From assembly GCA_016795365.1 (NCBI GenBank), contig JAEUHN010000054.1, positions 1-64,000 on the forward strand: a DNA stretch of 64,000 nucleotides, written 5' to 3'. Both the position numbers and the translations under genes were made by a program. Under the pieces are notes generated by a model that worked only from the letters and a program-made list of their open reading frames with translations, searched no databases and was not told the DNA's origin. This DNA is from Verrucomicrobiaceae bacterium (GTDB lineage Bacteria; Verrucomicrobiota; Verrucomicrobiia; Verrucomicrobiales; Verrucomicrobiaceae). Below, in pieces: positions 1 to 16,513 of the stretch. Each line of letters opens with the position of its first letter. The first letter of the stretch is position 1.

Positions 1-234
1 GGTCAAATACAGCGCGGACTGACGCTGAATGGTGTCGCACGCGCTGTAGCGATCGAGTGGATCGTGCGCGTTGTAGAACAGCGTGTCGGCCGCTTGATTG
101 CCTTCGAGATCGACGATGCGCAGCACTTGCCCCGCCTTGACCTCGTGCACCCAATGATCACCCGCGAGCACGGTGTGATCGTAGATCGCCTTCGCGGGAT
201 CGAGCGTGGATTGCGTGGGAATGAAAGCACTCAT
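1..234 (-). CDS. DUF1989 protein, urea-carboxylase-associated / carboxyguanidine deiminase-type second subunit (partial)
   Basis: The reading frame opens at an ATG (234-232) and stays open to the window edge, so about 78 N-terminal residues are visible and the C-terminus is missing. It begins [20 protein letters not shown] and contains [20 protein letters not shown] and [12 protein letters not shown], the pattern of DUF1989 proteins called urea-carboxylase-associated protein 2. Family knowledge: paired DUF1989 proteins beside 'urea' carboxylase act as carboxyguanidine deiminase (CgdAB), turning carboxyguanidine into allophanate and ammonia. The start codon overlaps the stop of the preceding DUF1989 gene (ATGA), which implies coupled synthesis of two subunits. 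Urea/guanidine carboxylase and allophanate hydrolase are expected next but lie outside the window. Confidence 0.85.
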
Positions 235-950
235 CGGGCGAGCAGGTAGAAGTCGTCGGTGTTGCGATGCGCGCGCGCGTTCTCGGGTCGCACCGCGAAG
301 CTCGGATCATCGAGCGCAGGCAGCGGCGTGTTGAAGACCTCCAGCTTCACGCGACGCGGGTGATACACGGGATCGGGATCGAGCGGGTGCTGGCAGGTGT
401 TGAGGACAACGAGCGTGTCCATGTCGAAGCGCAGGTCGATGTGATCGCCCGCCTTCGAGTGACCGTTGACAAAGCTCAACTTGCCATCGTCATCGGAGAC
501 GACCTTGCTGAACCAGTTGAGGTTCGGCACCAGGTCGCGCTCGCCGAGGCCCCACTTCGCCAGCTCGATGAGGAAGCACTCGCGGCCATTGCGATGGAAG
601 TCATTGCGCGCGGCCTGGAAGGTCTTCTCGCCATACTTCGCCTGCACCAGTCGCGCATCGCTCGCGCCGCAAACGGTGTCGTGCCAGCCCACGGTGTCCT
701 TTGTGATCGAGGCAACCAACCGCCCCATGTCCGAGTGAACGCAATACGGTGCGCGCAGGTAGAAGATGTGCTGGCCCTTCAGCGTGTCGGGCATGTTGTA
801 GCGCTCGTGGCGTTCACTCGCATGGTAGAGCAACATGCCGACGTTCGCGCCGCCTTCGAGGTCGGTGAGCCGCAGCGTTTTGTGTCGCCCAATGATGCGC
901 GACCACATGCCTGCGCCGCTGAGTTCGAGGGTGTAGATCGGTTCGCTCAT
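231..950 (-). CDS. DUF1989 protein, urea-carboxylase-associated / carboxyguanidine deiminase-type first subunit
   Basis: This is a 239-residue protein starting [20 protein letters not shown]. It carries the DUF1989 hallmarks [46 protein letters not shown] and a Cys/His-rich stretch (NTCQHPLDP) near residue 200. The family is found as a pair next to urea/guanidine carboxylase; recent work assigns the pair to carboxyguanidine deimination (CgdA/CgdB). Which subunit name applies is not certain from sequence alone. The start was chosen at 950 because it overlaps the stop of the NikR-like gene (ATGA); a longer upstream frame exists but would lie inside that gene. The stop overlaps the next gene by ATGA, so the regulator and both subunits form one coupled unit. 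Confidence 0.88.
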
Positions 951-1432
951 TTGTCGGGAGTCGTGGGCGCTGCGGGTTCGTCCGGCTGCGTTTGAATCGG
1001 CGGCATCAGCGTGCGCGTGAGATTGAGTCGGCCGGCGAGCACGCCTTTGCATTGCAGCAACTTGTTCGCGATCTGGCGCAGACGCTTCGCAGGGCCTTGC
1101 ACAAGGATGACTTCCATCGTGTTGCTGTTCTCCAGCAGCACATGCAGCGAGCTGATGACCTCGCGGATGTTCTCGTGCTGAATGTCCGCGATCTCTTGCT
1201 TCAAGCCGGGGCGCTTGTGATCGTAGAAGAGCGTGATCGTGCCCGCCATCATGCGATTGCCCTTCAGGCTGTAGTAGTCCGCGATGTGCTGCGTGAGCAC
1301 CTCGGCAATGGCTTGCGAGCGGTTTTCAAATCCACGCTCCGTCATCAGCTCCTCGAACTGGCGAAAAACGCCATCCGGCAACGAGATGGTGACGCGCTGG
1401 GCGATGTGAGACTCTGGCTTGGGATCAGGCAT
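947..1432 (-). CDS. NikR-like ribbon-helix-helix/ACT regulator with altered metal site
   Basis: This 161-residue protein has a ribbon-helix-helix DNA-binding domain (residues about 12-50, [17 protein letters not shown]) followed by an ACT-like metal-sensing domain (about 63-145), the NikR layout. E. coli NikR residues align with a constant offset of 10. H76 and H87 are kept (H86, H97), but H89 and C95 become L99 and T105, so only half of the high-affinity nickel ligands remain. It may sense another ligand or metal. It overlaps the start of the first DUF1989 gene by ATGA, which suggests local control of that operon. A pair of CGTATGAT boxes lies 35-63 bp upstream. The start at 1432 ([14 protein letters not shown]) fits NikR length; the longer frame upstream is not conserved-looking. 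Confidence 0.85.
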
Positions 1433-1448
1433 GAACACCTCACCACTT

Positions 1449-1464
1449 AGCAGTCGCCACGCCA
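1449..1464 (-). promoter_or_regulatory. Candidate sigma-54 promoter of the NikR-like/DUF1989 operon
   Basis: Read on the minus strand this is TGGCGTGGCGACTGCT, compared with the sigma-54 consensus TGGCAYRNNNNTTGCW. The GG and GC dinucleotides have the required 10-bp separation and 14 of 16 positions agree. The predicted start of transcription is near 1438, only about 6 nt before the ATG, so the leader would be very short. It lies immediately downstream of the CGTATGAT boxes. Confidence 0.4.
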
Positions 1465-1466
1465 CC

Positions 1467-1495
1467 CGTATGATTATTTCCAGAAATCGTATGAT
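1467..1495. promoter_or_regulatory. Two CGTATGAT boxes with 21-bp period, candidate operator of the NikR-like protein
   Basis: CGTATGAT occurs at 1467-1474 and again, identically, at 1488-1495, so the boxes are on the same helical face two turns apart. GTATGA is the half-site of the E. coli NikR operator, although there the half-sites are inverted rather than direct. Between them is a short inverted repeat ATTTC-CA-GAAAT (1476-1487). The boxes precede the gene for the NikR-like protein itself, so autoregulation is a reasonable inference. Confidence 0.5.
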
Positions 1496-1497
1496 GA

Positions 1498-2322
1498 TCA
1501 GTCGGTGGTGATCACATCCCGCAAATGCCTCAGCATCCAGTGATTCACCTCGCGCAAGTTGGCGGCGGGCTTCCTCGTGAAGGGCTCGCTCTGCAAGTAG
1601 CCATCGGGGCCAAACTCGGGCGTGAAGGTGAAGCTCGTGCGGCCCAACGCGGCCTGCGCTTTCACCATGTGCTGCCACCAGCGCACATGCGCAGCAACGG
1701 CATCCGCATACTCCGGCGCACGCGGATCGGGCACCTGCGGACCTTGATCGTAGCCGACTCGCGCGTGGATGTGTCGAGCACGGCAGGCGACCAAATCGAG
1801 CAACTCGGCCTCTTCATCCATGACGAGCCGCTCCGTCACCGCACACCAGTGGCTGAAGTCGCAGGTGAGACGAAGCTCCGGCAGTTCCATCAGCAAGTCG
1901 CGCGTCCCCCAAGGATGAAACGTGGGACGACTGCGATGCGTCTCGAAGGCGATGGGAATGCCGAACTCCCGCTCCAGCGGCAGCGCATCGGCGAAGAATT
2001 TCACCTTGTCCGAAAACGACCACGCATCGCTGCCAGCAAGCGTGTTGATCATGATCGGCTTGAACGGCAGGGCCGCTTCGATGGTGCGACACAAGTCATC
2101 GAGATGTTGCTGCGGTATGAGATGCGGACGCGGCACGTAACCGCCGCCCGTGGCGATCTCCGTGATCCACGGCACATCGCGATGACGAAGCGTGTCTTGA
2201 TTGGCTTCGTCAGCAGGCACTGCGCCTTCGATGCCATCGGCTTGCCAAGACTCAGCGAGAGCGAGTGCCCCAGTGATGTCCACTTCATTGCCCCAGCAGG
2301 AGACGAAGGTTTGGATAGTCAT
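1498..2322 (-). CDS. Sugar phosphate isomerase/epimerase-like TIM-barrel protein
   Basis: This 274-residue protein resembles the xylose isomerase-like / AP endonuclease 2 TIM-barrel superfamily. Supporting segments are the N-terminal FVSCWGNEVDITGAL, IAFETHR (metal-binding Glu), LRLTCDFSHWC (Asp/His), ARHIHARVGYDQG (His) and a late Glu in FTFTPEFGPDGY. These place the usual Glu/Asp/His/Glu metal ligands in order. There is no signal peptide, so it should be cytosolic. The substrate cannot be read from sequence. It is followed at 65 nt by the NikR-like gene and separated from the deacetylase-like gene upstream by a palindromic repeat element. Confidence 0.75.
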   Translation of the reverse strand: MTIQTFVSCWGNEVDITGALALAESWQADGIEGAVPADEANQDTLRHRDVPWITEIATGGGYVPRPHLIPQQHLDDLCRTIEAALPFKPIMINTLAGSDAWSFSDKVKFFADALPLEREFGIPIAFETHRSRPTFHPWGTRDLLMELPELRLTCDFSHWCAVTERLVMDEEAELLDLVACRARHIHARVGYDQGPQVPDPRAPEYADAVAAHVRWWQHMVKAQAALGRTSFTFTPEFGPDGYLQSEPFTRKPAANLREVNHWMLRHLRDVITTD

Positions 2323-2433: not shown

Positions 2434-3288
2434 TCACGCATCAAAGTTCACCTCCCGTCGCGCTTGAGGGTTGGCCTTCACATACTCCGCGATCTCATGT
2501 CCACGAGCGAACCAGACATCGCCACGCGCATGAGCTTTGGTGATGAGTTCCTCCAGCAAGCGCACTCGCGACGGACGACCGCTGAGCCAGGGATGCAGCG
2601 TGAGCACGAAGCAGCACCCGAAGTCATGCGTCGCTTCGAACTCGCGCCACCAGAGATCGAAGACCTTCGCGCAGTTCTCCGGGATGAAGCCCCAAGCGGG
2701 CTCGGCATTGAAGGCGAACTGCTCCCAGTCTTCGAGCATCCACTGGCCGGGGATTTCGATGAGGCCGTTCGCGTGGGTGTAGGGCACATCGTCGCCCATC
2801 ATGCTGGCGTTGTAGAGGAAGCCGAACTCCTTCAGCAAATCCGGCGTGCCGGGATTGATCTCAAACCACGGTGCTCGGAAGCCGATGGGCCACTTGCCGG
2901 TGATGCGTTCGAGAATGTCCACGCTCTTCTCCAGCACCGCGCGCTCTTCGTCGGGCGACAGATGCGCGAGCTTCTCATGCAAGTGCCCGTGCGCGCCCAC
3001 CTCGTGTCCGCGCGTGACGATGGCTTCCATCATTCGCGGATGATGCTCGGCGATGAAGCTCGGAACGAAGAACGTGGCCGGGATTTCCATATGATCCAGC
3101 AAGCCGAGCAAACGCGGCACGCCGACGTTCGGTCCATACTCGCACTGCGACATCGTGGTCAGTCGCGAGGCAAGCTTCGGATCCTCGGAGAGCGCCGTCG
3201 TCTCGCCATCAACATCAAAGCAGAGCATGAAGGCGCATCTGGCTCCATTGGGCCAGATGAAGCGTGGAGGTGGGGAGAAAGGAGTCAT
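2434..3288 (-). CDS. Polysaccharide deacetylase (NodB/CE4) family hydrolase
   Basis: This 284-residue protein carries the NodB-type core: FDVDGET near residue 25 (catalytic Asp region), the metal-binding HGHLHEKL motif (about residues 99-106), GFRAPWFE, and a late HPWLSG. The absence of a signal peptide and the N-terminus PPRFIWPNGARCAFML resemble the PuuE/allantoinase-like branch that acts on small cyclic amides and imides rather than on polymers. That would suit its place in a nitrogen-scavenging cluster, but is inference. The ATG lies inside the inverted-repeat element at 3282-3416, so the translation start appears to have been supplied by that element. The gene follows the FGE-like gene by 17 nt. 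Confidence 0.8.
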   Translation of the reverse strand: MTPFSPPPRFIWPNGARCAFMLCFDVDGETTALSEDPKLASRLTTMSQCEYGPNVGVPRLLGLLDHMEIPATFFVPSFIAEHHPRMMEAIVTRGHEVGAHGHLHEKLAHLSPDEERAVLEKSVDILERITGKWPIGFRAPWFEINPGTPDLLKEFGFLYNASMMGDDVPYTHANGLIEIPGQWMLEDWEQFAFNAEPAWGFIPENCAKVFDLWWREFEATHDFGCCFVLTLHPWLSGRPSRVRLLEELITKAHARGDVWFARGHEIAEYVKANPQARREVNFDA

Positions 3289-3416
3289 TGGTCAGTAGTC
3301 TTTGGTCATTGGTTTCGTGAAACGAAGCACAGTCTGCTATCGAAGTCGGACGGCTTAATTCTAAGAGACAGCATGGCAGTAAATCCCAATGACTTATGAC
3401 CATTGACCAATGACTC
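3282..3416. repeat. Miniature inverted-repeat element between FGE-like and deacetylase genes
   Basis: The ends form a perfect 13-bp inverted repeat (GAGTCATTGGTCA at 3282-3294 and its complement at 3404-3416). The match extends imperfectly to about 34 bp on each side and includes inner GTCATTGG boxes. The element is about 135 bp. It encodes the last ~36 residues of the FGE-like protein, including its stop at 3306, and supplies the start codon of the deacetylase-like gene. No transposase is present, so it would be non-autonomous. Confidence 0.6.
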
Positions 3417-4061
3417 ACACGCAATGCGGAAACCCAGGTTGTCGCGCTTCGTGTCAGGTGTGGCAAAGTCACGCCAGGCGCTTCGCAGCAGACGCGGCAT
3501 ATAGTCCCACGCGCCGCCGCGAATCACGCGATGCGCTTCATCGGGCGCGGCATCGTAGCTCGCTCGCCATGCATCGGCCACCCACTCGCAGACATTGCCG
3601 TGCATGTCTTCCAAGCCGAAGGCATTCGGCGGATACGAGCCAGGTGGCGTGCGATGGCCGGGACCGACCTTGAAGCCATGCTCATCGTAGAAGTAGTTGG
3701 CGTGCTCCGGCTCAAGCGTGTCGCCGGCGTTGAAAATCGACGTGCTTCCCGCGCGACAGGCATACTCCCATTCGGCTTCGGTGAGCAGACGAAACGAGTT
3801 GCCTGTCTGCGCGCTCAGCCACGCGACATACTTCATCGCCTCCCACCAGTTCACCCGGACGACGGGCAGCGACGAACTCGGCCCACCGGCGAACGCAGAC
3901 CACTGCGCCTCAGTGATCGCAGAGCGCGACACCGCGAACGGATTCTCGATCACGACTTCATGTGCAGGCCTCTCGGTCGAGTTGGCAAAGCGATCCTCGC
4001 CCACCGTGCCCAAGATGAAGCGTCCGGCGGGGATCGTGATCATGTCCGGCAACTCAATCAT
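3306..4061 (-). CDS. Formylglycine-generating-enzyme-like (SUMF1 domain) protein without active-site cysteines
   Basis: This 251-residue protein has the SUMF1/FGE fold signatures: DMITIPAGRFILGT, RPAHEVVIENPFAVSRSAIT, RLLTEAEWEYACRAG, NAFGLEDMHGNVCEWV and RVIRGGAWD. In true FGE the GGSF motif is followed by the two copper-binding cysteines (pattern GGSF-x-C-x4-C). Here the stretch reads GGAWDYMPRLLRSAWR with neither cysteine, so sulfatase activation is unlikely and another SUMF1-domain role is more probable. The native end is likely near GFRIAC; the remaining residues come from an inserted repeat element. The start at 4061 (MIELPDMITIPAG) overlaps the SDR stop by 8 nt. Confidence 0.82.
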   Translation of the reverse strand: MIELPDMITIPAGRFILGTVGEDRFANSTERPAHEVVIENPFAVSRSAITEAQWSAFAGGPSSSLPVVRVNWWEAMKYVAWLSAQTGNSFRLLTEAEWEYACRAGSTSIFNAGDTLEPEHANYFYDEHGFKVGPGHRTPPGSYPPNAFGLEDMHGNVCEWVADAWRASYDAAPDEAHRVIRGGAWDYMPRLLRSAWRDFATPDTKRDNLGFRIACESLVNGHKSLGFTAMLSLRIKPSDFDSRLCFVSRNQ

Positions 4062-4824
4062 GCCACTGCCCTCCGATGACGTTGTCCGGTGCCGTGAGCG
4101 GATACTCGCTCCAGCCCGCCGTGATGCCACCATCGACGGGGATGATCGCGCCCGTGACGTAGCTGGCGTCGTCGGAGGCAAGGAAGTGAAACACAGCGGC
4201 GATCTCGGATGGCTGTGCGAGCCGACCGAGCGGTGTCATCTTGCTGACGAAGGGGATCTCGGGGTTGTCCGGGATGTTGGTGACCGCAGGCGTGAGCACG
4301 GTGCCAGGGCAGATGCAGTTCACAGTGATGCCGCGTGGCGCGAGTTCGATGGCACCGAGTTTGGTCAGGTGAATGACCGCCGCCTTCGACGTCGAGTAAG
4401 CCGTGCCGCTGGGCGTGCCGATCATGCCGACGAAGGAGCCGGTGTTGATGATGCGACCGCCGCGCTCCAGCAACTGCCCACCGTGCTTGATGCCGAAGGC
4501 AACGCTGTTCACGTTCACCTCGAAGGTGCGCTGGAGCAGTTGTGGAGTGAGTTCGTCAAAGGTCACGCCGAGCGGTTGAATGCCCGCGTTGTTGATGAGG
4601 ATGTCCACGCGGCCAAACTCCGCCTTCGCCCGCTCCAACATGCCGCGCACGGCGTCTTCGCTGGAAATATCGGCTTGATGAAACACCGAGCCTTCGAGTT
4701 GGGCTTCGTTGCGATCCACGAGTAGCACCCTGGCTCCTGCCTGGATGAAGCGCTCGACAATGGCGCGCCCGATGCCGGACGCGCCACCGGTGACGACGGC
4801 GACTTTGTTCGTCAGGTCAAACAT
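4054..4824 (-). CDS. Short-chain dehydrogenase/reductase (SDR)
   Basis: This 256-residue classical SDR has the NAD(P)-binding TGGASGIG motif (residues 12-19), the NNAG motif (about 77-80), catalytic Ser in NTGSFVGMIG, the YSTSK catalytic Tyr-Lys and a C-terminal VTGAIIPVDGG. DRN at the end of beta-2 (LLVDRNEAQ) suggests preference for NAD(H). It acts in the cytosol on an unidentified alcohol or carbonyl substrate. It overlaps the GFA gene upstream by 13 nt and the FGE-like gene downstream by 8 nt, so it is part of the Rieske-GFA-SDR operon and may oxidise a product of the Rieske oxygenase. That link is inference from context. Confidence 0.9.
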   Translation of the reverse strand: MFDLTNKVAVVTGGASGIGRAIVERFIQAGARVLLVDRNEAQLEGSVFHQADISSEDAVRGMLERAKAEFGRVDILINNAGIQPLGVTFDELTPQLLQRTFEVNVNSVAFGIKHGGQLLERGGRIINTGSFVGMIGTPSGTAYSTSKAAVIHLTKLGAIELAPRGITVNCICPGTVLTPAVTNIPDNPEIPFVSKMTPLGRLAQPSEIAAVFHFLASDDASYVTGAIIPVDGGITAGWSEYPLTAPDNVIGGQWHD

Positions 4825-5219
4825 GGTGGTGGTCCATTGTGGATGAACTGCGGCAACGAGGGATCCAGGTGCAACCAGGGCAGATGATCCTCCATCCAGT
4901 TGTAGTCGTCAGGCTTCAGTGCGGCGGCGTCGTCCATGGTGCCGAGCGTGACTTCCATGAGATCGGGATAGGCTTGATCGGTGAACGAGATGGGTGATCC
5001 GCACGCCGCGCAGAAGGATCGCTCGCGACCTTCATATGCATGCACGCGCAGCTCGCCGCTGAGGATCTCAACCTTCGTTCGCGGGAAGAAGATCCAGCCT
5101 TGAAACGGAGCACCGCTGGCGCGTCGGCAGTCCTCGCAGTGACACAGCGAGGTATTCAGCGGTGCGCCAGTCGCTTCGTATCTGACAGCTCCACAGAGGC
5201 AGTGACCTGTCCAAGTCAT
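4812..5219 (-). CDS. GFA/CENP-V family zinc protein
   Basis: This 135-residue protein shows the zinc-binding pattern of the glutathione-dependent formaldehyde-activating (GFA) family: GHCLCGAVRY, SLCHCEDCRRASGAPF (Cys-x-Cys-x2-Cys) and FCAACGSPISF. The start at 5219 (MTWTGHCLCG) was chosen because it overlaps the stop of the Rieske oxygenase by ATGA and gives a normal family length. The family name implies capture of formaldehyde, but this activity is poorly proven for most members. Tight coupling to an oxygenase that could release formaldehyde by N-demethylation makes the role plausible here. It overlaps the SDR gene by 13 nt. Confidence 0.88.
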   Translation of the reverse strand: MTWTGHCLCGAVRYEATGAPLNTSLCHCEDCRRASGAPFQGWIFFPRTKVEILSGELRVHAYEGRERSFCAACGSPISFTDQAYPDLMEVTLGTMDDAAALKPDDYNWMEDHLPWLHLDPSLPQFIHNGPPPCLT

Positions 5220-6574
5220 GGTCGTTGCGACGGTGCGGGTGGCGTGACGGTGGCCGGAAGAACTCCGCGAGTCCTCGCCGCCAAATACCGCTGAATCAGC
5301 CACACGGACATCTCCAGGTAGCTGAGGCGACCGCGTTGATAACCGCTCGCGTAGAAGCCGCGCTGCACAGCGGTGCAGACTTCCATGTCTTCGAGGTGGA
5401 AGTCGCGCAGACGCTTGGTTTCGCTTTCGAGCATCGCTGGCCAGTCGGGATGCTCGGTGGTTCTGGCGGGCACGAGCGTGGTGGTCAGCAGCTTCATGCG
5501 ATCGGGGCCGAGCGGCATCATGCGATAGAAGATGAGGCGGTCGGGATTGGCCGACATCAGCATGAGCGGATGCACCAGGAAGAGATGCCACTCTTTGCAG
5601 AGTTCATCGGACAGCGACTCGATCTTCGGGAAGCCATACGGATGCTCACCGCGTGCCAGTGCGGATTCGATCTCGGCGACCAGCGCGTCCTTCAGTGGCA
5701 AATGCGCGCGAACGTAAGCGGGGCGCTCCTCTTCGTTCCAGGTGCCCTTCGCGGGCATCATGGGCTGCAGCGTCTTCGCGTGCGCGCCCATGTGGTGGTA
5801 GGACTCCATGAAGTTTTCCGCCAGCACTTTCCAATTGAACGGGCAGTCCCATTCCATCTGGATCACCATCTTCATCTCGTCGAGACGCCAGGGAGCGAGG
5901 GCTTCGCTCAATCCGGTGAGGCGATCGTTCAGTGCAGGCGCAGTGCCGTCGAGATTGACGAAGACAAACCCATTCCACACCACGCAGCGGAACTCCTTCA
6001 GTCCCCATGCATCGCGCTCGAAGTCCTCCGTCTTCTGCATCTCGGGCGAGCCTTTCAGCCGACCATCCAACTCGAAGGTCCACGCGTGATACGGGCACAT
6101 GAAGAGCCGCGCGTGACCGCAGCCGGGCTGGCCTTCCTTGGCATCGCCAATGCCGTGACCGCTGTAGCCAAAGCCTTCCGGCATGATGTCCATCGCGCGA
6201 TGCGGACAGATGCGCGACAGCACGCGAATGCGGTCCTCTTTGCCACGCACGACGATGAGCGGCTCGCCGAGCATATCGATGTTCAGGAAGTCGCCCGCCG
6301 CCGGAATCTGCGACATGTGCGCGAGCGGTAGCCAGTCATTGCGGAAGATGTGATCCACCTCCCAGTCGAAGAACTCCTGGCTGGTGTAGGCTTGCGAAGG
6401 CAGCGTGGTCGCCTTCGCGAGTGGCAGTTCGGCGATGCGCTGGATCTCGGTCTGGATTTGTTCGACGCTCCACTGCGGAAGCGCACTGCGCACACCCGTG
6501 CGCGAGGAGAACTGAGTGAGGGAAGCAGGCTGCGCACAGGCAGCGCGGACATTCGATTCGGTGAGGACTTTCAT
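5216..6574 (-). CDS. Rieske non-heme iron oxygenase, alpha subunit, with enlarged cluster loop
   Basis: This 452-residue protein has the Rieske ligands C123-P-H125 and C160-P-Y-H163 and the mononuclear iron site NFMESYHHMGAH with a later Asp (FHLEDMEVC). Family members usually have 15-17 residues between the two ligand pairs; here there are 34, including an extra CGH. Reductase partners are not present nearby. It is coupled by ATGA to a GFA protein and then to an SDR. Oxygenases of this type hydroxylate rings or remove N-methyl groups from quaternary amines; the substrate here is unknown. The start at 6574 (MKVLTESNVRAA) was preferred to an upstream Met because the extra 46 residues look non-coding. 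Confidence 0.9.
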   Translation of the reverse strand: MKVLTESNVRAACAQPASLTQFSSRTGVRSALPQWSVEQIQTEIQRIAELPLAKATTLPSQAYTSQEFFDWEVDHIFRNDWLPLAHMSQIPAAGDFLNIDMLGEPLIVVRGKEDRIRVLSRICPHRAMDIMPEGFGYSGHGIGDAKEGQPGCGHARLFMCPYHAWTFELDGRLKGSPEMQKTEDFERDAWGLKEFRCVVWNGFVFVNLDGTAPALNDRLTGLSEALAPWRLDEMKMVIQMEWDCPFNWKVLAENFMESYHHMGAHAKTLQPMMPAKGTWNEEERPAYVRAHLPLKDALVAEIESALARGEHPYGFPKIESLSDELCKEWHLFLVHPLMLMSANPDRLIFYRMMPLGPDRMKLLTTTLVPARTTEHPDWPAMLESETKRLRDFHLEDMEVCTAVQRGFYASGYQRGRLSYLEMSVWLIQRYLAARTRGVLPATVTPPAPSQRP

Positions 6575-6840
6575 GGATGACGTAGCAGAACGTATTGGTG
6601 ATAAAACTGGCGAGATGTGATGCCAGACCCGCTGCTGCCATGAGCCTCGTTTCAGCTCATCCCGCAGCGCGCAGGCCTGATCGAGCAGGCCCCCCGCACC
6701 CGACATAGACATAAGCGATCACCGTCACGCCCAGCCGCAAAAGCAGCGAGCGGAGGTCAGGGATCGAGTCGTGGATGCGACGAGTCATTGGCGATGGTGA
6801 AAGCACGATTCAGGCCATTCATCCGAGGGCGTCACACGCC

Positions 6841-8202
6841 TCAGAACAACCGCGCATACTGATCGATCTCCCACTGGCTGACGCGCTGGTGGTATTGCAG
6901 CCACTCCTCGCTCTTGTAGGTGATGAACTCGTTGCGCAGTTCGGTTCCGAGCGTGGCTTCGACGAAGGGATCTTCGGCGAAGGCGCGGACTGCTTCGTCG
7001 AGCGTGCGCGGGAGTTCGCTGATGCCGCGGGCTTTCAGTTCGACTTCGCTGAGCGAGTAGAGGTTGTCTTCGTTCGAGGCACCGGGATCGATCTTCTCGC
7101 GGATGCCTTCGAGTCCGGCGGCGAGCACGAGCGTGGCGGCAAGGTAGGGATTGCAGGCGGCGTCGGCGTTGCGCGATTCGACACGTCCACCGGCCATGGG
7201 CACGCGCACGGAGTTGGTGCGGTTGTTGCGTCCGTAGCTGTTGAAGACCGGTGCCCAGCTGTAGTAGCTCATCAGGCCGCGACGCACGAGGCGCTTGTAG
7301 CTATTCACCGTGGGCGCAAACGTCGCGCACAGAGCGCGGCCATGCTTCAAGACACCGCCGATGAAATGGTAGGCCATCTCACTGATGCCGAGTCCGCGCG
7401 GGTCTTCGGCGTGGGGTCGGGCGAAGAGGTTCTTGCCAGTTTCGAGGTCATACATCGACATGTTGAAGTGCGCACCGTTGCCCGTCTTGTCGGCGAAGGG
7501 CTTGGGCATGAAGGTGGCGATGAGCCCTTCTTCGGCGGCGTAGTGCTTCGCCATGTAGCGGAAGAAGATGTAGCGGTCGCACATGGTCAGCGCGTCGGCG
7601 TATTTGAAGTCGAACTCGAACTGCGATGACGCATCCTCGTGATCGAAGGAATACAAATCCCAGCCGAGGTCGTTGATGCACGTCGCCACTTTGTCCAGCC
7701 AGGTGAAACGATCCATGAAGCGCTTCACGTCGTAGCAAGTCTTCACCAGAGTTTCGTCAGAGTTCGGGATCTCCAGCTTACCCTCGGGCGTGAGCTTCAA
7801 GACGAAGACCTCGCACTCGATGCCGAGGTTCATCCCCAGGCCCATGTCAGCGGCTTGTTTCAGCACCTTCTTGAGCGCACAGCGCGTATTCACCTCATAG
7901 GGCTGACCTTTGAACGTGTTGTCGGCAGGCATCCACGCCACCTCCTTCTGCCACGGCAGCTGGATGATCTTGTCCACGTCCGGCAGCGACGCGATCTCGT
8001 CGTCGTTCGGCCCTTGGCCGAGGCCGTCCAAAGCGTAGCCGGTGTAGAGTTCGGAGCCGCGCGCGAAGTCGAGGAAGTGATCCACCGGCACGACCTTGCC
8101 CTTCGGCACCCCGTGAATGTCTACGTAAGCGCCGATGCAGTATTTGACGCCTTTGGTTTTGAGTGAGTCGCGGAGAGAGGGCAGTTCGGCTTCGGTTTTC
8201 AT
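6841..8202 (-). CDS. glnT: Type III-like glutamine synthetase (GlnT)
   Basis: The 453-residue length and sequence fit the GlnT branch of glutamine synthetases, shorter than GSI-beta and far shorter than the GSIII of Bacteroides. Visible motifs are GIECEVFVL (metal Glu), [23 protein letters not shown] (ammonia/metal site), [10 protein letters not shown] and the [10 protein letters not shown] / [14 protein letters not shown] segment that replaces NRSA-x-R...EFRFPD. The enzyme should ligate ammonia, or possibly an amine, to glutamate with ATP. It sits directly after the creatininase-family gene (25-nt gap) in an island that releases ammonia, so capture of that ammonia or gamma-glutamylation of an amine are both reasonable. 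The start at 8202 gives [14 protein letters not shown]. Confidence 0.88.
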
Positions 8203-8227
8203 GATGAGGATGGGATGGAAAAAGAGT

Positions 8228-9052
8228 TCAGTAAGCGACTTGGGTGTTGAGCCAGTGATCGGCGGAGAGCGGTGGCTGTTCGGTGCGCGCGCGGGTGACG
8301 ATTGCAGCGAGCGCTTCGCCCATTTGCTCAAAGAGTTCTTTGCCGCGTGCAGCCGAGCCGAGTGAAGGCTTGCCCGTAATGCCGTTCAGGCTGGTCTGTG
8401 AAACCGGGTAACTAAAGACCAAGCCATTCGTGCGGTCGGGATCGTCTTCGACCCAGTCCATGCGCACCGTGTTCGGTGCGAGGTGCAACATAAGATCAGT
8501 TTCCGCGCAGTTCGCGTGCAGATCATCAGCATCGCTGATGAAGTAGTTCCAGACCTCCGGCGTGAGCTGATACGTGTGCTTCAAGCCGATCTGGAACTGC
8601 CCAAGAAACTCCGTGCGCACGCGATCCACGGCGACTCGCAGCGAGGCGTCGTTGCCGAAGTGCGCGTTCACGATGAGCAGCCGCTTCCAGCCCGTCTTCA
8701 ATGCCCACTGCGAAAGCTGGCGAATCGTGGCGATCAGCGTTTCGTGGTCCAACGAAAACGTCCCCGGCCACTTCGGCGTGTGCCCCACTGACACGCCATA
8801 TGAGAGCGACGGCAGCATCGGCACCTGCGTTTTCGCTGACGCATACGCACACACCGTGCTCGCGATGGCCGTGTCGGTGTTGATGGGCAAATGCGGACCG
8901 TGCTGCTCCGTGGCCCCGATCGGCAGGAGCAGCATGTCATTGCCAGCCGCGAGCAACTCCGCGATGGCTCGCCAGGAGAGTTCTTCGAGGCGCAGAGGCT
9001 TGCCAGGGATCACGTCACTCCTCGTCATGGCCGCTGTTTGCTTCGGGTTCAA
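8228..9052 (-). CDS. Creatininase-family amidohydrolase
   Basis: This 274-residue protein carries [16 protein letters not shown] (metal Glu and His), NTDTAIA (Asp), [17 protein letters not shown] (His) and [11 protein letters not shown] (Glu), which is the ligand series of creatininase/MftE/FAPy-deformylase-like hydrolases. The usual VNGHGGN motif is changed to IVNAHFGN. Creatininase itself opens the cyclic guanidine creatinine, so a cyclic guanidine or amide substrate would match the neighbouring guanidine and biuret genes, but the family is broad. The start could be the first Met (9052) or Met9 (9028); a weak sigma-54-like site at 9069-9084 would fit the second better. Confidence 0.85.
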
Positions 9053-9084: not shown

Positions 9085-9140
9085 CGCGGCTACGGTCGTC
9101 ATACGGTGGCGAGGCAGGACTCATACTATTAACTCAAATA

Positions 9141-9168
9141 TTGCTCTAAAGCCATAAACCCATATTAT
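9141..9168 (+). promoter_or_regulatory. Candidate sigma-70 promoter of the vapBC cassette
   Basis: TTGCTC (9141-9146) and TATTAT (9163-9168) are separated by 16 bp in a locally AT-rich stretch. The -10 box overlaps the upstream ATG at 9167, and transcription would begin near 9175. The mRNA would therefore be leaderless and start at the ATG of 9176. Confidence 0.4.
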
Positions 9169-9175
9169 GACCCAT

Positions 9176-9424
9176 ATGAAGACAACCATTGAACTTCCAA
9201 ATGCTCTGTTCGCTGCGGCCAAGGCAGTGGCTGCAAAGCGTCGCACGACGTTGAAGGCGATGATGGAACATGCTCTCAGGCGTGAGATCGCCTTCGAGAG
9301 CAGCGATCCGTCAACGGCTCCGGTCGAAGTCAATGCTCATGGCTTCCCTGTCTTGAGGAGGAAGTCCAAAACCAAGGTAACCAGCGAGCACGTCTATCAG
9401 ATGCTCGAAGAGGAATCCGCCTAG
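9176..9424 (+). CDS. VapB-type antitoxin
   Basis: This is an 82-residue protein beginning MKTTIELPNALFAAAKAVAA, a ribbon-helix-helix strand-helix start typical of antitoxins paired with PIN toxins. The C-terminal half (PVLRRKSKTKVTSEHVYQML) would wrap the toxin. An ATG nine bases upstream (9167) is in frame, but it lies inside the candidate -10 box, so 9176 was preferred. The toxin gene follows after 9 nt. The pair sits on the opposite strand to everything around it and splits the nitrogen island between the creatininase and ABC transporter genes, which suggests an acquired cassette. Confidence 0.8.
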   Translation: MKTTIELPNALFAAAKAVAAKRRTTLKAMMEHALRREIAFESSDPSTAPVEVNAHGFPVLRRKSKTKVTSEHVYQMLEEESA

Positions 9425-9433
9425 CACCACAGC

Positions 9434-9856
9434 ATGTTCCTGCTTGATGCTAATGTTCTGATCGCGCTGGGAGATCCGTCCCACGTTCATCACCGCCGTG
9501 TGCAGCAGTGGTTTCATTCTCAACCTGGGCGTGCCTGGGCAACATGCTCGCTGACAGAAAATGCTTTCATCCGAATCATCAGCACCGCGAGCTACCCTGG
9601 GCATGTCGGCGATGTGAATCAACTTCGCCAGGTGCTTGCTCAAATGTGTTCATTCCCTGGCCACCAATTTTGGAAGGACTCCGTTTCGCTGCGCGACAAG
9701 ACAGTTTTTCCGCAATTGCCACCATCGAAGCATCTCACTGACATTTATTTGCTAGGTCTCGCTGTGGCGCACAAGGGTAAGCTCGCGACGTTGGATAGGC
9801 GGATTGATCCAAAGCGCATTCCAGGTGGATCTCAAGCTTATTTCTTGATTCCGTAA
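9434..9856 (+). CDS. vapC: VapC-type PIN-domain toxin
   Basis: This 140-residue PIN-domain endoribonuclease keeps the acidic active site: D5 in MFLLDANVLIAL, E in SLTENAFIR (about residue 42), D in HLTDIYLLGLA (about 104) and D in ATLDRRID (about 122). The TLTENAFIRI / PGHVGDVNQLR context belongs to the TA-system VapC group that cleaves tRNA or rRNA. It lies 9 nt after the antitoxin gene, as in standard vapBC operons. Its stop is 16 nt from the convergent end of the ABC ATPase gene. Confidence 0.88.
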   Translation: MFLLDANVLIALGDPSHVHHRRVQQWFHSQPGRAWATCSLTENAFIRIISTASYPGHVGDVNQLRQVLAQMCSFPGHQFWKDSVSLRDKTVFPQLPPSKHLTDIYLLGLAVAHKGKLATLDRRIDPKRIPGGSQAYFLIP

Positions 9857-9872: not shown

Positions 9873-10775
9873 TCACTCCACATCGTCTCCCGCACTCGTC
9901 ATCTTCACGACAGGCAGCTTGTCTTCCTCCACTTCCACCGGCGGATGAATCAGTTCCTCGAGTCGCATCTTGAGCGCGAGATACTCAGGCGAGACGAACT
10001 GTGCGGGCGATCTCGGACGTGGGATCGGGTTCTCGATGAACTCCACGACACGGCCGGGATTGGTCCCCATCACAAGGATGCGGTCCGAGACGTAGGCGGC
10101 TTCTTCGAGGTCGTGAGTGATGAAGAGGATGGTGATGTCCACCTTGCGCCAGATTTGTAGAAGGTAGCTCTGCATCTGGGCACGCGTCTGGGCATCGAGC
10201 GCGCCGAAGGGCTCGTCCATGATGAGGATGCGCGGTTCGTTGGCGAGGGCTCGTGCGATGGCGACGCGTTGCTTCATGCCGCCGGAGAGTTCGTGAGGAT
10301 AGGCGTCCTCGAACTTGGAGAGGCCCACCATCTCCAGCCACTGACGCGCTTCGGCTTCGGCGACGAACTTGCCTTTGCCACGCATCTCGATGCCGAACAT
10401 GACGTTGCGCTTCACGGTGAGCCACGGGAAGAGCGTGTAGCCCTGGAATACCATGCCGCGATCAGGGCCGGGCTCGCCGATGTTTTTGCCATCGAGCAAG
10501 GCGACGCCGCCATTGCATTCGTCGAGTCCGGCGATGATGCGGATGAAGGTCGATTTGCCGCAGCCAGACGGACCGATGACGGTGATGAATTCGCGGCGGT
10601 GGATGTCGAGTGAGACGCCATCGAACACCGTGCGAGTGGAGCCGTTCTGGCCGAAGGTCTTCTTCAAGTCCTTCACGCTGAGGATGACGGGGCGCTGCTT
10701 GATGCGCTCAAAGCGTGCGGCGACTTCGGGCGCTTGCTGTCGATAGTCGAGAGAATGAGGAGCGAGCGCGGTCAT
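9873..10775 (-). CDS. ABC transporter ATP-binding protein (nitrate/sulfonate/urea-carboxylase-region type)
   Basis: This 300-residue ATPase has Walker [11 protein letters not shown]-loop [12 protein letters not shown], signature [15 protein letters not shown], Walker [14 protein letters not shown] and the switch His in [12 protein letters not shown]. It belongs to the SsuB/TauB/NrtD group of importer ATPases. The start at 10775 (MTALAPHSL) overlaps the permease stop by ATGA, so permease and ATPase are coupled. Together with the permease and binding protein it forms a complete importer of the type found beside urea/guanidine carboxylase, whose substrate is probably guanidine, urea or a related small nitrogen compound. 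Confidence 0.93.
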
Positions 10776-11806
10776 GCTTCGACGGGGACGGCGGGTGCGG
10801 GTTTTTTCGGCAGCAACTTGGCGAACCACGCGCCGAGCTTCGATGGAGAACCGGAGCGACGCTTCCAGGGAAAGATGATGCGACCAATCCAGGCAAGGAA
10901 GAGATCCGAGGTGAAGCCGATGATGCCGATCATGAAGATGGCGGCATAGACGTTGTCGAAGTTCCGATAACGCGCCTGCTGATTGATGAAGTAGGTGATG
11001 CCGGACATGGTGCCGACGACTTCAGCGACGATGAGATATGTCCATGCCCAACCGAGGAGGATGCGCATGTCGGTGTAGATGTCAGAGATGGAAGCCGGGA
11101 TCACCACGCGGCGCATGAGCTTCCAGCCTTTGGCACCGAGTGTCTGCGCTGCTTCGATGAGCGCGGGGTCCACCTTGCGCACGGTGTTGCTGATCACGAG
11201 CACTTGCTGGAAGAAGGTGCCGATGAAGATGATGGCGATTTTGGGCCCATCGTCGATACCGAGGATGGCGACGCACAGCGCACCGAAGGCTGGTGCTGGC
11301 AGGTAGCGGAAGAATTCAATGAATGGCTCCTGCAAGCGCGAGAAGAAGCGATAGGTGCCGCACAAGATGCCGAGCGGCAGGCCGAAGATGGACGAAATGA
11401 GAAAGCCCCAGCAGATGGTGCGGATGCTGTGCGAGAGGCTCTCGTGCAACCACGGCTCGTTCGGCAGGCGAGGCTCGGTGGTGAACGCGGTGTAGAAGGC
11501 GCGTGCAACCTTGTGCGGTGCGGGAAGATAGACAGGATTCACGCGCTCGCCTTGTGGCAACTCGCCACCCGCAGCCTGCACCTTCGCGAGTTCCTTGGCG
11601 AAGTCGGCCTTCGGCACTTCCATGTCTTCGACGAAGTAGTCCACATCACCGGGCGCGGTGATGTGGACCAGAGGATGCCATAGCCAAGGCACATAGCTCA
11701 CGGCTGTCCAAAGGATCAGCGGCGTGAGAAAGGACAGGACGGTCAGCACGAGTCTGCGGTTCGCAGGCAGCTCTTGCTTCAGTCCAAGCCAGTCTCGTTG
11801 AGCCAT
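10772..11806 (-). CDS. ABC transporter permease, urea-carboxylase-region type
   Basis: This 344-residue BPD_transp_1 permease has about six to seven membrane segments and the EAA loop [20 protein letters not shown] that contacts the ATPase. A hydrophilic insertion of about 75 residues ([20 protein letters not shown]...[14 protein letters not shown]) follows the first membrane helix; this is unusual for SsuC/TauC proteins but is, as I recall, seen in the versions linked to urea carboxylase. It lies 18 nt after the binding-protein gene and overlaps the ATPase gene by ATGA. Confidence 0.92.
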
Positions 11807-11824
11807 GTGCGTGGTGGTGAGAGT

Positions 11825-12805
11825 TTACTTCAGCGCGTTCACGATGCTCGGCGTGAGGTAGCTGGAGGGCTTCTGCGACTCCTTGTAAACCTTGTTGTCG
11901 AGGTTGAACTTGTTGCCGACTTCCATCGAGCCGTAGATCGAGTCGAGGCCTTCACCTTTGACGAAAGCTTTCTTCGCTTCAGCGAGCGTGAGGAAGTGCG
12001 TGCCAGGAACATTCTCCGCATAGTCCTTCACATCCGCACCGACCTTGGCCGACATGATCTTGATCGCATCGTCCTTGGTCTTCGGATCGAGCACGTAATC
12101 GACGCACTTGTAGAAAACGCCGACGAACTTGCTCCAGGCTTCCTTGTTCTTCGCGAAGCTGGTGGGATTCACCGCGAGCACGTCGTAAATGAGGCCTTTC
12201 GCTTCGGAGCTGGAGAAGAGCTTCTTCGAGCCCGCGACCTGCTTCAGCGCTTGGCCCGAAGACGGATACCAGGCACCGATCGCCGCCACCTTACCGGAGG
12301 CGAGCGTCTGCGGTGTCTCGTTCGTTGGTGTGTTCACGAGTTCCACGTCGGACTGACTCATGCCATTCACTTCGAGTGCTTTCATGAGAAGCAAATGCTC
12401 CACGAGCGTGAGTTCCAGGCCGACCTTTTGACCTTTGAGGTCCTTGATGGAATTCACACCCGGCTTGCCGACGATGGCATCGCTGCCGTCGCTGTAGTCG
12501 AGGAGTGCGATGATCTTGCTCTTCGCACCGTTGGCACCGTTTACGAGTGCGTCGGTGGCCACGCAGCATACGCCGTCGATCTTCCCAGCGGAGAAGGCGT
12601 CGAGCGATGGCAAGTAATCGAACCAAACCATCTCTACTTCGACACCGGCCTCTTTGAACCAGTCCTTTTGCTTGGCGATTTCCAGCACGGTGTAGCCAGG
12701 CCAGTCGGAGTAGCCGACTTTAAGTTTGTCAGCGGCATCGGCGGAATGAACCAGCGATGCGGCGATGAAAGTGAATGAGAGACGAAACAGTGTTCTTAAC
12801 TTCAT
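11825..12805 (-). CDS. ABC transporter periplasmic substrate-binding protein, urea-carboxylase-region type
   Basis: This 326-residue protein begins with a signal peptide (MKLRTLFRLSFTFIAASLVHSADA) and continues KLKVGYSDWPGYTVLEIAKQ, DYLPSLDAFSAGKIDGVCCV, GQKVGLELTLVEHLLL and GVFYKCVDYVL. It matches the NMT1/TauA-like fold and most closely the binding proteins found in the urea carboxylase region (TIGR03427 type, by memory). It should deliver its ligand from the periplasm to the permease encoded 18 nt downstream. The start at 12805 was chosen because it gives a normal signal peptide and lies about 23 nt after the predicted start of a strong sigma-54-type promoter. Confidence 0.9.
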   Translation of the reverse strand: MKLRTLFRLSFTFIAASLVHSADAADKLKVGYSDWPGYTVLEIAKQKDWFKEAGVEVEMVWFDYLPSLDAFSAGKIDGVCCVATDALVNGANGAKSKIIALLDYSDGSDAIVGKPGVNSIKDLKGQKVGLELTLVEHLLLMKALEVNGMSQSDVELVNTPTNETPQTLASGKVAAIGAWYPSSGQALKQVAGSKKLFSSSEAKGLIYDVLAVNPTSFAKNKEAWSKFVGVFYKCVDYVLDPKTKDDAIKIMSAKVGADVKDYAENVPGTHFLTLAEAKKAFVKGEGLDSIYGSMEVGNKFNLDNKVYKESQKPSSYLTPSIVNALK

Positions 12806-12838
12806 GAGTGCGATGGGTGAATGGTTCGCCGACTTCCA

Positions 12839-12854
12839 AGCACTCATCATGCCA
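12839..12854 (-). promoter_or_regulatory. Candidate sigma-54 promoter of the ABC importer operon
   Basis: Minus-strand TGGCATGATGAGTGCT agrees with TGGCAYRNNNNTTGCW at all fixed positions except one (G for T at the first -12 base). GG and GC are 10 bp apart. Transcription would start near 12828, giving a leader of about 23 nt before the binding-protein ATG. This is the best sigma-54 match found in the window. Confidence 0.6.
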
Positions 12855-12986
12855 ATGGCATTCAGGCCTCCAAATATCGTCACACGATGGGTTGAAGATG
12901 ATCACACGCAGCGGGCGACGGGAGGAATGACAAGCCAAGATGCGCCCGGGATCACAGGGTCGTTCGGCTTTGAGCAACGTTCGAAG

Positions 12987-13434: not shown

Positions 13435-14112
13435 TCAGTAGATCGCCTTGATGAAATTCGTTGAGTTGCTCACGGCACCGAAGACGCCGCCCTGCATCTT
13501 GATCATCTTCAGTGCGGCGAGGTAGTTGCCGTAGTCGGTCGCGCCGGTGCAGTCTTCGAGCAGCAGGCACTCGAAGCCGCGATCGTTCGCTTCACGCATG
13601 GTGGTGTGCACGCACACGTCGGTCGTGATGCCTGCGAGCACGATGTTCTGAATGCCTTTGCGACGCAGCAGCATGTCGATGTCGGTGCCGTAAAAACTGC
13701 CTTTGCCCGGCTTGTCGATGATGGCCTCGCCTGGCATGGGAGCGAGTTCTTCGATGATGTCCCAGCCGGGCTCGCCGCGCACGAGGATGCGACCGCAAGG
13801 GCCGCAATCGCCGATGCCAGCGCCGATGCGCTGGCTGCGCCACTGCTTGTTCGCTGGGAGATCGGATAGATCAGGTCGATGCCCTTCGCGCGTGTGCATA
13901 ACGTGATAGCCTTTGGCACGAGCCGCAGCGAAGACGTTCTTGATCGGCTCGATGGGCGCGCGCGTGAGTGACAAGTCGTAGCCCATCTTGTCCACGTAAC
14001 CGCCAGGACCGCAGAAGTCGGTTTGCATGTCGATGACAAGGAAGACGGTGTTCTCAGGGCGAAGATCGCCGTTGTAAGGCCAGGGGTAGGGATCAGCTTC
14101 GACGTAGGGCAT
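13435..14112 (-). CDS. biuH: Biuret hydrolase
   Basis: This 225-residue isochorismatase-like cysteine hydrolase should convert biuret to allophanate and ammonia. It begins [15 protein letters not shown], a signature of the BiuH branch. Its catalytic triad D28-K134-C167 lies exactly 8 residues before the positions I recall for Rhizobium leguminosarum BiuH (D36, K142, C175), which implies alignment without gaps. The stretches [31 protein letters not shown] and [14 protein letters not shown] also match that enzyme. A longer frame begins at 14160, but 14112 was chosen because the first 16 residues look unrelated and a sigma-54-type promoter would start transcription near 14128, between the two candidates. 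Confidence 0.92.
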
Positions 14113-14138
14113 GTAGGCAGGAGGATTGGAGTTGGAGA

Positions 14139-14154
14139 AGCAGCTAGTGAGCCA
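14139..14154 (-). promoter_or_regulatory. Candidate sigma-54 promoter of biuH
   Basis: Minus-strand TGGCTCACTAGCTGCT has GG and GC correctly spaced and 14 of 16 consensus matches. The predicted start near 14128 gives a leader of about 16 nt to the ATG at 14112 and would exclude the ATG at 14160. Confidence 0.45.
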
Positions 14155-14223
14155 GAACAAAGCGACCCGGCGGTAACCAGCCGCCGGATCGCCTCAACCA
14201 TGCATCAACCTAGCAAAAAGAAT

Positions 14224-15841: not shown

Positions 15842-16513
15842 TCAGCCCAGTGCTGCGATGATTTTGGATGAGTCGCTCACCCATCCGAAGATGCCGCCCT
15901 GCGCCTTGATCATCTTCAAGCCCATCTCCTGGAAGATCGGGAAGTAAGAGCCAACGCAGTCCTCAGGCACGAGGCATTCGTAACCGCGATCATTCGCCTC
16001 GCGCACCGTCGTGTTGACACAGACCTCCGTTGTCACACCAGTGACGACGAGCTGCGTGATGCCGAGGTTTTGCAGGATGGCGTGCAGATCGGTGGCGAAG
16101 AAGGCACCCTTGCCTGGCTTGTCGATGACAGGCTCGCCCGGCAGCGGGTAAAGCTCAGGAATGATGTCCTGACCAGGTTCGCCACGAATCAAGATGCGTC
16201 CCATCGGACCTGTGTCTCCGATGGTCTTCGTGCCTTTGCCACGCACCTTCTTTGCCGGTGGGAGGTCCGACAAATCAGGGCGATGGCCCTCGCGGGTGTG
16301 CAGGACTTGAAGGCCCGCAGCCCGCCACGCATCGAGGAGATTCTTATTGGGAGCGATAGCGCGGCGGAGCTGCGAAACGTCATTGCCCAGCATCTCGCCG
16401 AAACCTCCGGGCTCCAGGAAGTCACGTTGCATGTCGATGATGAGCAGCGCCGTCTTCGCGGGCTGCATCTCGAATGCATAAGGTTCGGCGTCGATGCTGA
16501 GGGTCGCATTCAT
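15842..16513 (-). CDS. Isochorismatase-like cysteine amidohydrolase, possible triuret/biuret-type hydrolase
   Basis: This 223-residue protein is a paralogue of the biuret hydrolase encoded 1.7 kb away and keeps the triad D27-K132-C165 (LLIIDMQRDF, IDKPGKGAF, TTEVCVNTT). It differs at the N-terminus (IDAEPYAFEMQPAKTAL), in the GNDVSQLRRAIAPNKN segment, in VRGKGTKTIGDTGPMGR, and in the C-terminal SYFPIFQEMGLKMI where BiuH has [14 protein letters not shown]. The known triuret hydrolase TrtA is a BiuH paralogue encoded near it, so triuret is an attractive substrate, but relatives acting on other amides cannot be excluded. The gene lies 38 nt after the outer-membrane protein gene. Confidence 0.85.
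   Translation of the reverse strand: MNATLSIDAEPYAFEMQPAKTALLIIDMQRDFLEPGGFGEMLGNDVSQLRRAIAPNKNLLDAWRAAGLQVLHTREGHRPDLSDLPPAKKVRGKGTKTIGDTGPMGRILIRGEPGQDIIPELYPLPGEPVIDKPGKGAFFATDLHAILQNLGITQLVVTGVTTEVCVNTTVREANDRGYECLVPEDCVGSYFPIFQEMGLKMIKAQGGIFGWVSDSSKIIAALG

Follow-up and report, generated by a model that had tools for sequence, protein, structure and literature searches.

The regulators closest to the protein described here are the NikR proteins of E. coli, P. horikoshii, and H. pylori, in which an RHH DNA-binding domain is followed by the NikR C-terminal domain and nickel is bound by the ligand set H76, H87, H89, and C95 (PMC7055735). Their operators combine GTATGA half-sites at a two-turn spacing, as in GTATGA-N16-TCATAC. 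The closest described pathway is that of the CgdAB (UAAP1-UAAP2) operons, which encode an ABC importer, CgdA/B, a carboxylase, and an allophanate hydrolase. DUF1989 is the family of the carboxyguanidine deiminase CgdAB (PMC11271267, PMC12508155), an Asp marks guanidine carboxylases and an Asn urea carboxylases (PMC12186494), and guanidine-I and guanidine-II riboswitches provide dedicated control of operons of this type (PMC12186494, PMC12508155). A precedent for the derivation of a metabolite sensor from a metal-sensor family is FrmR of the DUF156/CsoR-RcnR family, which senses formaldehyde and gains a metal response by one ligand change (PMC4528141, PMC5016687).

Here we consider a window of 64,000 nucleotides, the first 64,000 positions of contig JAEUHN010000054.1 from a Verrucomicrobiaceae bacterium (assembly GCA_016795365.1), together with related loci. 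Its NikR-like protein shares with the above NikRs the RHH and NikR C-terminal domains, a full-length alignment, and the fold; its predicted operators likewise have GTATGA half-sites, the two-turn spacing, and a position before the regulator's own gene. Unlike in NikR, the high-affinity nickel site is not conserved (the ligand columns read HHLT in the window protein, and Cys95 is lost clade-wide), the low-affinity metal pair is altered, and the gene resides in a guanidine operon rather than with nickel transport. This operon has the same core as the CgdAB operons, including the Asp-type carboxylase, but adds creatininase-like, GSIII-like, Rieske, SDR, TIM-barrel, and other genes along with the NikR-like gene. 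Like the guanidine riboswitches, the regulator would exert dedicated control of this operon type; unlike them, it would do so as a protein acting on predicted operators and not as an RNA. It belongs to a different family from FrmR, whose effector is known, whereas the effector of the NikR-like protein is proposed here from context. The open-access papers searched yielded no link between NikR and a guanidine-carboxylase operon, no protein switch for guanidine, and nothing relevant for NikR or CopG with urea carboxylase or for NikR with allophanate or RegPrecise. An earlier computational annotation of the link between NikR-like proteins and guanidine may exist.

The NikR-like regulator and the guanidine operon

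The regulator gene (947..1432, minus strand) is an intact ORF of 161 aa, whose product has an RHH DNA-binding domain followed by a NikR_C domain (Pfam, 88.8 bits against a cut-off of 22). phmmer aligns it with E. coli NikR (1q5v) over nearly the whole chain, free of gaps and at an offset of 10, so placing H76 at H86, H87 at H97, H89 at L99, and C95 at T105. The low-affinity pair E30/D34 becomes Q40/E44, and the RHH contacts are R13, T15, and S17, at the positions of R3, T5, and T7 of E. coli NikR, which we take to be the base-contacting residues. Among structures, P. horikoshii NikR is closest in sequence (4.7e-29), and the top structure matches of an AlphaFold2 model (pLDDT 84) are likewise NikR (2bj3, E 3.6e-13). 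The initial annotation had called the protein a NikR homologue retaining H76 and H87 but not H89 and C95, and both statements hold; its description of half of the nickel ligands as lost is accurate for this protein but does not extend to the clade, whose members keep 0 to 3 of the 4. The 6.74-Mb genome that contains the window has no second NikR_C protein and no CbiM transporter. The protein misses the TIGR02793 nikR cut-off (67.6 against 175) and passes that of NCBIfam NF003381, "nickel-responsive transcriptional regulator NikR"; thus, an annotation taken from NF003381 would mislead.

The stop codon of the gene (TGA, 947-949) overlaps the start (ATG, 948-950) of UAAP1, a DUF1989 protein (231..950, minus strand; TIGR03425, 307.8 bits, cut-off 205.95), after which part of UAAP2, the second DUF1989 subunit, follows (1..234, minus strand), cut by the contig end at which the window starts. 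This accords with the operon shared with DUF1989 subunits that the initial annotation had described. UAAP1 and UAAP2 are presumably the two subunits of carboxyguanidine deiminase. Contig C51 shares an exact 141-bp overlap with the window and carries the rest of UAAP2, then a 1200-aa guanidine-type biotin carboxylase and an allophanate hydrolase; from these 141 identical bases we infer that the two contigs join. The operon would then comprise an ABC importer, the NikR-like gene, CgdA/B, the carboxylase, and the allophanate hydrolase. The carboxylase of a relative aligns with the K. lactis urea carboxylase, of which we take Asn1330 to be the critical residue; its position was located from the offset of 3va7 relative to 5i8i, and GAINFTGD there corresponds to G(A/S)IDFTGD in the operon carboxylases. 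All 89 readable operon carboxylases have an Asp at this position, as does that of the window genome itself. Given this Asp and the membership of UAAP1/2 in DUF1989, the pathway is that of guanidine and not of urea.

Ahead of the NikR-like gene lies a series of genes, all on the minus strand, most of them identified by profile matches and gene maps of relatives. These are a xylose-isomerase-like TIM-barrel gene (1498..2322), which is below the Pfam cut-off and a conserved neighbour in relatives; a polysaccharide-deacetylase/allantoinase-PuuE-like gene (2434..3288); an FGE-sulfatase/SUMF1-domain gene (3306..4181); a short-chain dehydrogenase gene (4054..4824); a GFA-domain gene of the formaldehyde-activating-enzyme family (4812..5237); a Rieske oxygenase alpha subunit (5216..6712); a type III glutamine-synthetase-like enzyme (6841..8331, its start probably near 8200; TIGR03105, 624.5 bits, cut-off 469.6); and a creatininase-family hydrolase below the creatininase equivalog cut-off (8228..9052). 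An NMT1-type ABC importer (9873..12883) consists of an ATPase (9873-10829), a permease (10772-11806), and a substrate-binding protein (11825-12883); relatives have the same importer type ahead of the NikR-like gene. Beyond it is a biuret amidohydrolase (13435..14160; NF050097, 410.1 bits, cut-off 370), and since this gene passes a curated cut-off, biuret is suggested to feed the same allophanate step. A second biuret-amidohydrolase-like gene (15842-16513, minus strand) lies on the other side of a permease. Between the creatininase and ABC genes, a two-gene module on the plus strand (9167-9424 and 9434-9856) has the look of a VapBC-type toxin-antitoxin pair, its second protein being PIN-like by eye. 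In two phyla, creatininase-like and GSIII-like genes are repeatedly found ahead of the NikR-like gene; in Verrucomicrobiota, this is also true of Rieske, TIM-barrel, and SUMF genes. The upstream genes may supply the pathway with guanidine or allophanate derived from other compounds.

Of the 387 phylum genomes, 45 have UAAP1 above the cut-off. In 38 of these, a comparison of coordinates puts a NikR_C gene no more than about 7 kb away on that contig; the Pseudomonadota loci have the same gene order. In the window and in relatives alike, the gene thus sits in a guanidine operon and not beside genes for nickel transport or nickel enzymes. Judging from these maps, it is a fixed member of the predicted guanidine-carboxylase operon. 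Seven genomes of the phylum have UAAP1 without NikR, which counts against the reading that we favour below; no riboswitch was seen in the four such loci read. The DUF1989 subunit is tripled (UAAP1-UAAP2-UAAP2) in the NikR-less guanidine operons L165, L166, and L167.

Nickel ligands across the clade

NikR_C was searched in the 387 genomes of the phylum, further loci were taken from a genome collection (80 listed of 443 relatives), and the loci were mapped with tblastn. The initial annotation had proposed mapping ligand loss against operon context on a phylogeny of NikR and NikR-like proteins. In our maximum-likelihood tree, the operon-type proteins, from hosts in Verrucomicrobiota, Gammaproteobacteria, and Betaproteobacteria, form a single operon-linked clade (98 of 138 rows, support 100/99) at whose base Cys95 is lost. 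Its tree neighbours are HHHC NikRs from the same phylum, four of which adjoin CbiM/CbiQ nickel/cobalt transporters. The inner forks are weak, because the tree rests on 127 columns only. The reconstruction shows that the clade descends once from a nickel-type NikR.

The ligand columns of canonical copies read HHHC, and those of operon copies HHLT, RHLT, RHQT, RHLV, RHLI, YHLT, HHHT, YHHT, HHHY, and others. Zero, one, two, and three ligands are kept in 5, 52, 24, and 17 of the 98 members, and all four in none. Cys95 is absent from every member, and parsimony places its loss twice, at the base of the clade and in the unlinked, long-branched L068, the sole row outside the clade with ligand loss; it also assigns about 7 changes to His89 and 6 to His76. 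The tree shows a loss of Cys95 that covers the whole clade and repeated losses of His76 and His89 inside it. The E30/D34 pair is mostly Q/E. The recurrence of ligand loss with the same neighbourhood in more than 90 loci indicates that the association is not due to chance. A shortened orphan NikR-like gene of the HHHY type (L046, in genome G085, which has no UAAP1) is an apparent case of decay after loss of the operon.

Other positions have become nearly fixed, namely Gln112 (98/98), Glu91 (88/98), and the Ser94-Ser95 pair, which suggests that they may serve a new sensing function. Two features count against a new, non-metal function of the pocket as we propose it: His87 persists in 87 of the 98 members, and the pocket residues vary, with Arg, His, or Tyr at 76 and Leu, Gln, or His at 89. 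No invariant acidic pair of the kind that would mark a guanidinium site runs across the clade, though Glu91 is nearly fixed.

Predicted operators, candidate promoter, and recognition residues

The predicted operator 1 (1468..1494) is a direct repeat, TCATAC-N15-TCATAC on the minus strand, with half-sites 21 bp apart; it sits in a 65-bp gap, some 35 bp ahead of the start of the NikR-like gene, and is conserved in L033, L034, L072-L074, and L076. A further site, GTATGA-N16-GTATGA on the minus strand (9099..9126), precedes the creatininase gene, the first gene after it, and is divergent from the VapBC-like module. Its spacing is the standard one plus one base, and L072 has GTATGC-N16-GTATGA at the matching place; we regard it as a candidate operator 2, because it is one base too long, stands before the creatininase gene, and has a similar site in a relative. 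The direct-repeat form occurs three times in the 6.74-Mb genome, at 1468, at 9099, and in one simple repeat, and no inverted GTATGA-N14-17-TCATAC is found there, only direct repeats. Within the 64-kb window, the pairs at 1468 and 9099 are the only two.

No pair lies near the urease gene ureC (38894-40651). Urease was accordingly rejected as an operator target in the window, where the urease cross-talk considered in the initial annotation finds no support. An Rfam match to 5_ureB_sRNA (39058-39386, minus strand, 71.8 bits, cut-off 40) lies antisense to the start of ureC and is also seen in L033, L034, and L037; it may reflect the conserved urease coding sequence and not an sRNA. In L033, L034, L049, and L053, urease-size clusters (about 573 and 106 aa) adjoin the guanidine operon, their identity being judged by size and, in L033 and L034, also by the Rfam match.

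With the half-site taken as the 7-mer GTAWTAC or GTATGAN, the common arrangements ><16, <<15, >>15, and <>14 all give a centre distance of 21 bp, as in the E. coli operator, from which three ><17 pairs deviate. When one mismatch at most is allowed and a relevant gene must lie no farther than 250 bp away, pairs with two half-sites 21 bp centre to centre occur in 92 of 113 loci, against 2 for the reversed motif at 21 bp and 15 or fewer for every other spacing tested; at this threshold, 21 of the 113 have none. Perfect pairs stand upstream of the NikR-like gene in 42 of 119 loci, whereas single-base shuffles predict 0.04. In Proteobacteria, the operator is found before the importer gene, directly ahead of its ribosome site. 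Over the loci as a whole, operators stand before the gene of the regulator itself and before importer or glutamine-synthetase-like genes.

The half-site varies with the residue at E. coli NikR position 5: Thr goes with GTATGA in 24/24 unmixed sites and Ser with GTATTAC in 65/65 (Fisher test, 3.6e-19, a value that ignores relatedness); five operators have hybrid half-sites. By parsimony, there are about eight Thr/Ser changes on the tree, and the covariation is therefore not the legacy of one inherited event. The Arg3 contact is invariant in the clade. The comparison shows that the recognition strand and the predicted two-half-site 21-bp operator have been retained.

Directly after operator 1, a candidate sigma54-like -24/-12 element, TGGCGTGGCGACTGC (1450..1464, minus strand), was read by eye; it would leave a leader of about 6 nt. 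RNA structure in the 68-nt leader is no better than in shuffles. Of 78 operators, 27 are followed by the pattern TGGC-N8-TGC, spaced like a sigma54 -24/-12 element, where shuffling predicts 2.2; the distance is nearly always 0-4 or 22 bp. The cases listed are from Verrucomicrobiota, and the element is absent from the Proteobacterial loci listed. RpoN is encoded in the window genome.

Effector and alternative explanations

The NikR-like protein is very probably a DNA-binding regulator of the guanidine operon, and probably no longer a physiological nickel sensor, with greater assurance for the window protein than for the HHHT forms. We favour, with moderate confidence, a NikR-derived RHH repressor of guanidine catabolism that is no longer controlled by nickel and that guanidine or a related metabolite would release from its operator. 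A repressor fits the operators' contact with the promoter or ribosome region, and release by such a compound is favoured because a catabolic operon needs its substrate to relieve repression, the reverse of a nickel corepressor, and because new residues have become nearly fixed. The protein would act as an autoregulated repressor seated directly before a sigma54-like promoter in Verrucomicrobiota or before the ribosome site of the first gene in Proteobacteria. The old nickel pocket at the tetramer interface would respond to guanidine or a nearby metabolite, with guanidine, methylguanidine, a guanidino precursor, carboxyguanidine, and allophanate as candidates; binding would free the operator, and nitrogen status would act via sigma54. 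The protein would do what guanidine riboswitches do elsewhere.

The distribution of these riboswitches bears on the effector. No guanidine-I, -II, or -III match is found in the window, no RF00442 (guanidine-I) in its genome, and no guanidine riboswitch in the loci of the phylum; guanidine-I RF00442 is missing from 64 of 68 genomes with the NikR-like operon, among them every one of the 33 that came from the phylum set. In the four genomes that have both, the riboswitch precedes CgdA/B, and the NikR-like gene is found elsewhere: last in a separate importer-creatininase-GSIII operon (L099, L102, L106) or last among the importer genes that come after the allophanate hydrolase (L129). This division suggests that the effector may be a front-end substrate or imported precursor rather than guanidine. 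That it is some guanidino or pathway metabolite seems, on the whole, a reasonable expectation. The initial annotation's idea of a sensor repurposed for a metabolite or another metal is strongly sustained, as to the repurposing, by the clade, the Cys95 loss, the operon linkage, and the covarying operators.

The protein could still sense metal, though through an altered site; nickel (or Zn/Co) status would then decide whether nickel enzymes (urease, guanidinase) or the nickel-free biotin carboxylase route is used, in the manner of a switch that spares nickel. The persistence of His87, the three-ligand members, which are mostly HHHT and HHHY, and the urease of the window genome would agree with this, but we consider it unlikely: Cys95 is lost in all members and His76/His89 in most, many have one ligand or none, the E30/D34 pair is mostly replaced by Q/E, and no operator pair lies near the window urease, which, because the carboxylases are of the guanidine type, is no direct alternative to them. 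Somewhat less doubtful, though still improbable, is a repressor without an effector, whose sensing domain would only hold the tetramer together while nitrogen status (sigma54/activator) or the protein level regulates. Drifting pocket residues, the sigma54-like elements after many operators in Verrucomicrobiota, the presence of RpoN, and the autoregulatory operator are compatible with such an arrangement; on the other hand, the sensing domain is conserved, and its near-fixed Gln112, Glu91, and Ser94-Ser95 suggest a newly gained function, not a relaxation of selection, while the listed Proteobacterial loci do not have the sigma54 element. A decaying nickel regulator on its way to loss might be imagined from the lost ligands and the shortened copy in G085, but it is highly improbable given an intact frame, the invariant Arg3 contact, and a fold predicted with high confidence, and it is refuted by the covariation of operator and residue and by the recurrence in two phyla.

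With the metabolite-released repressor as the preferred reading, the NikR-like protein is likely to be a dedicated switch of guanidine-degradation genes in two phyla. Whether it would be the first protein sensor of guanidine or a guanidino compound, replacing riboswitches in Verrucomicrobiota and some Proteobacteria, is evenly balanced on the genomic context. With its operators and specificity residues predicted, the clade is a concrete candidate that lends itself to testing. A path from a metal sensor to another effector is documented in it as well: Cys95 is gone from all members and His76 and His89 disappeared on several occasions, while the code for DNA persisted and even switched, with Thr/Ser accompanying GTATGA/GTATTAC. 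If this is true, loss of the metal site would have turned a nickel sensor family into a small-molecule repressor.
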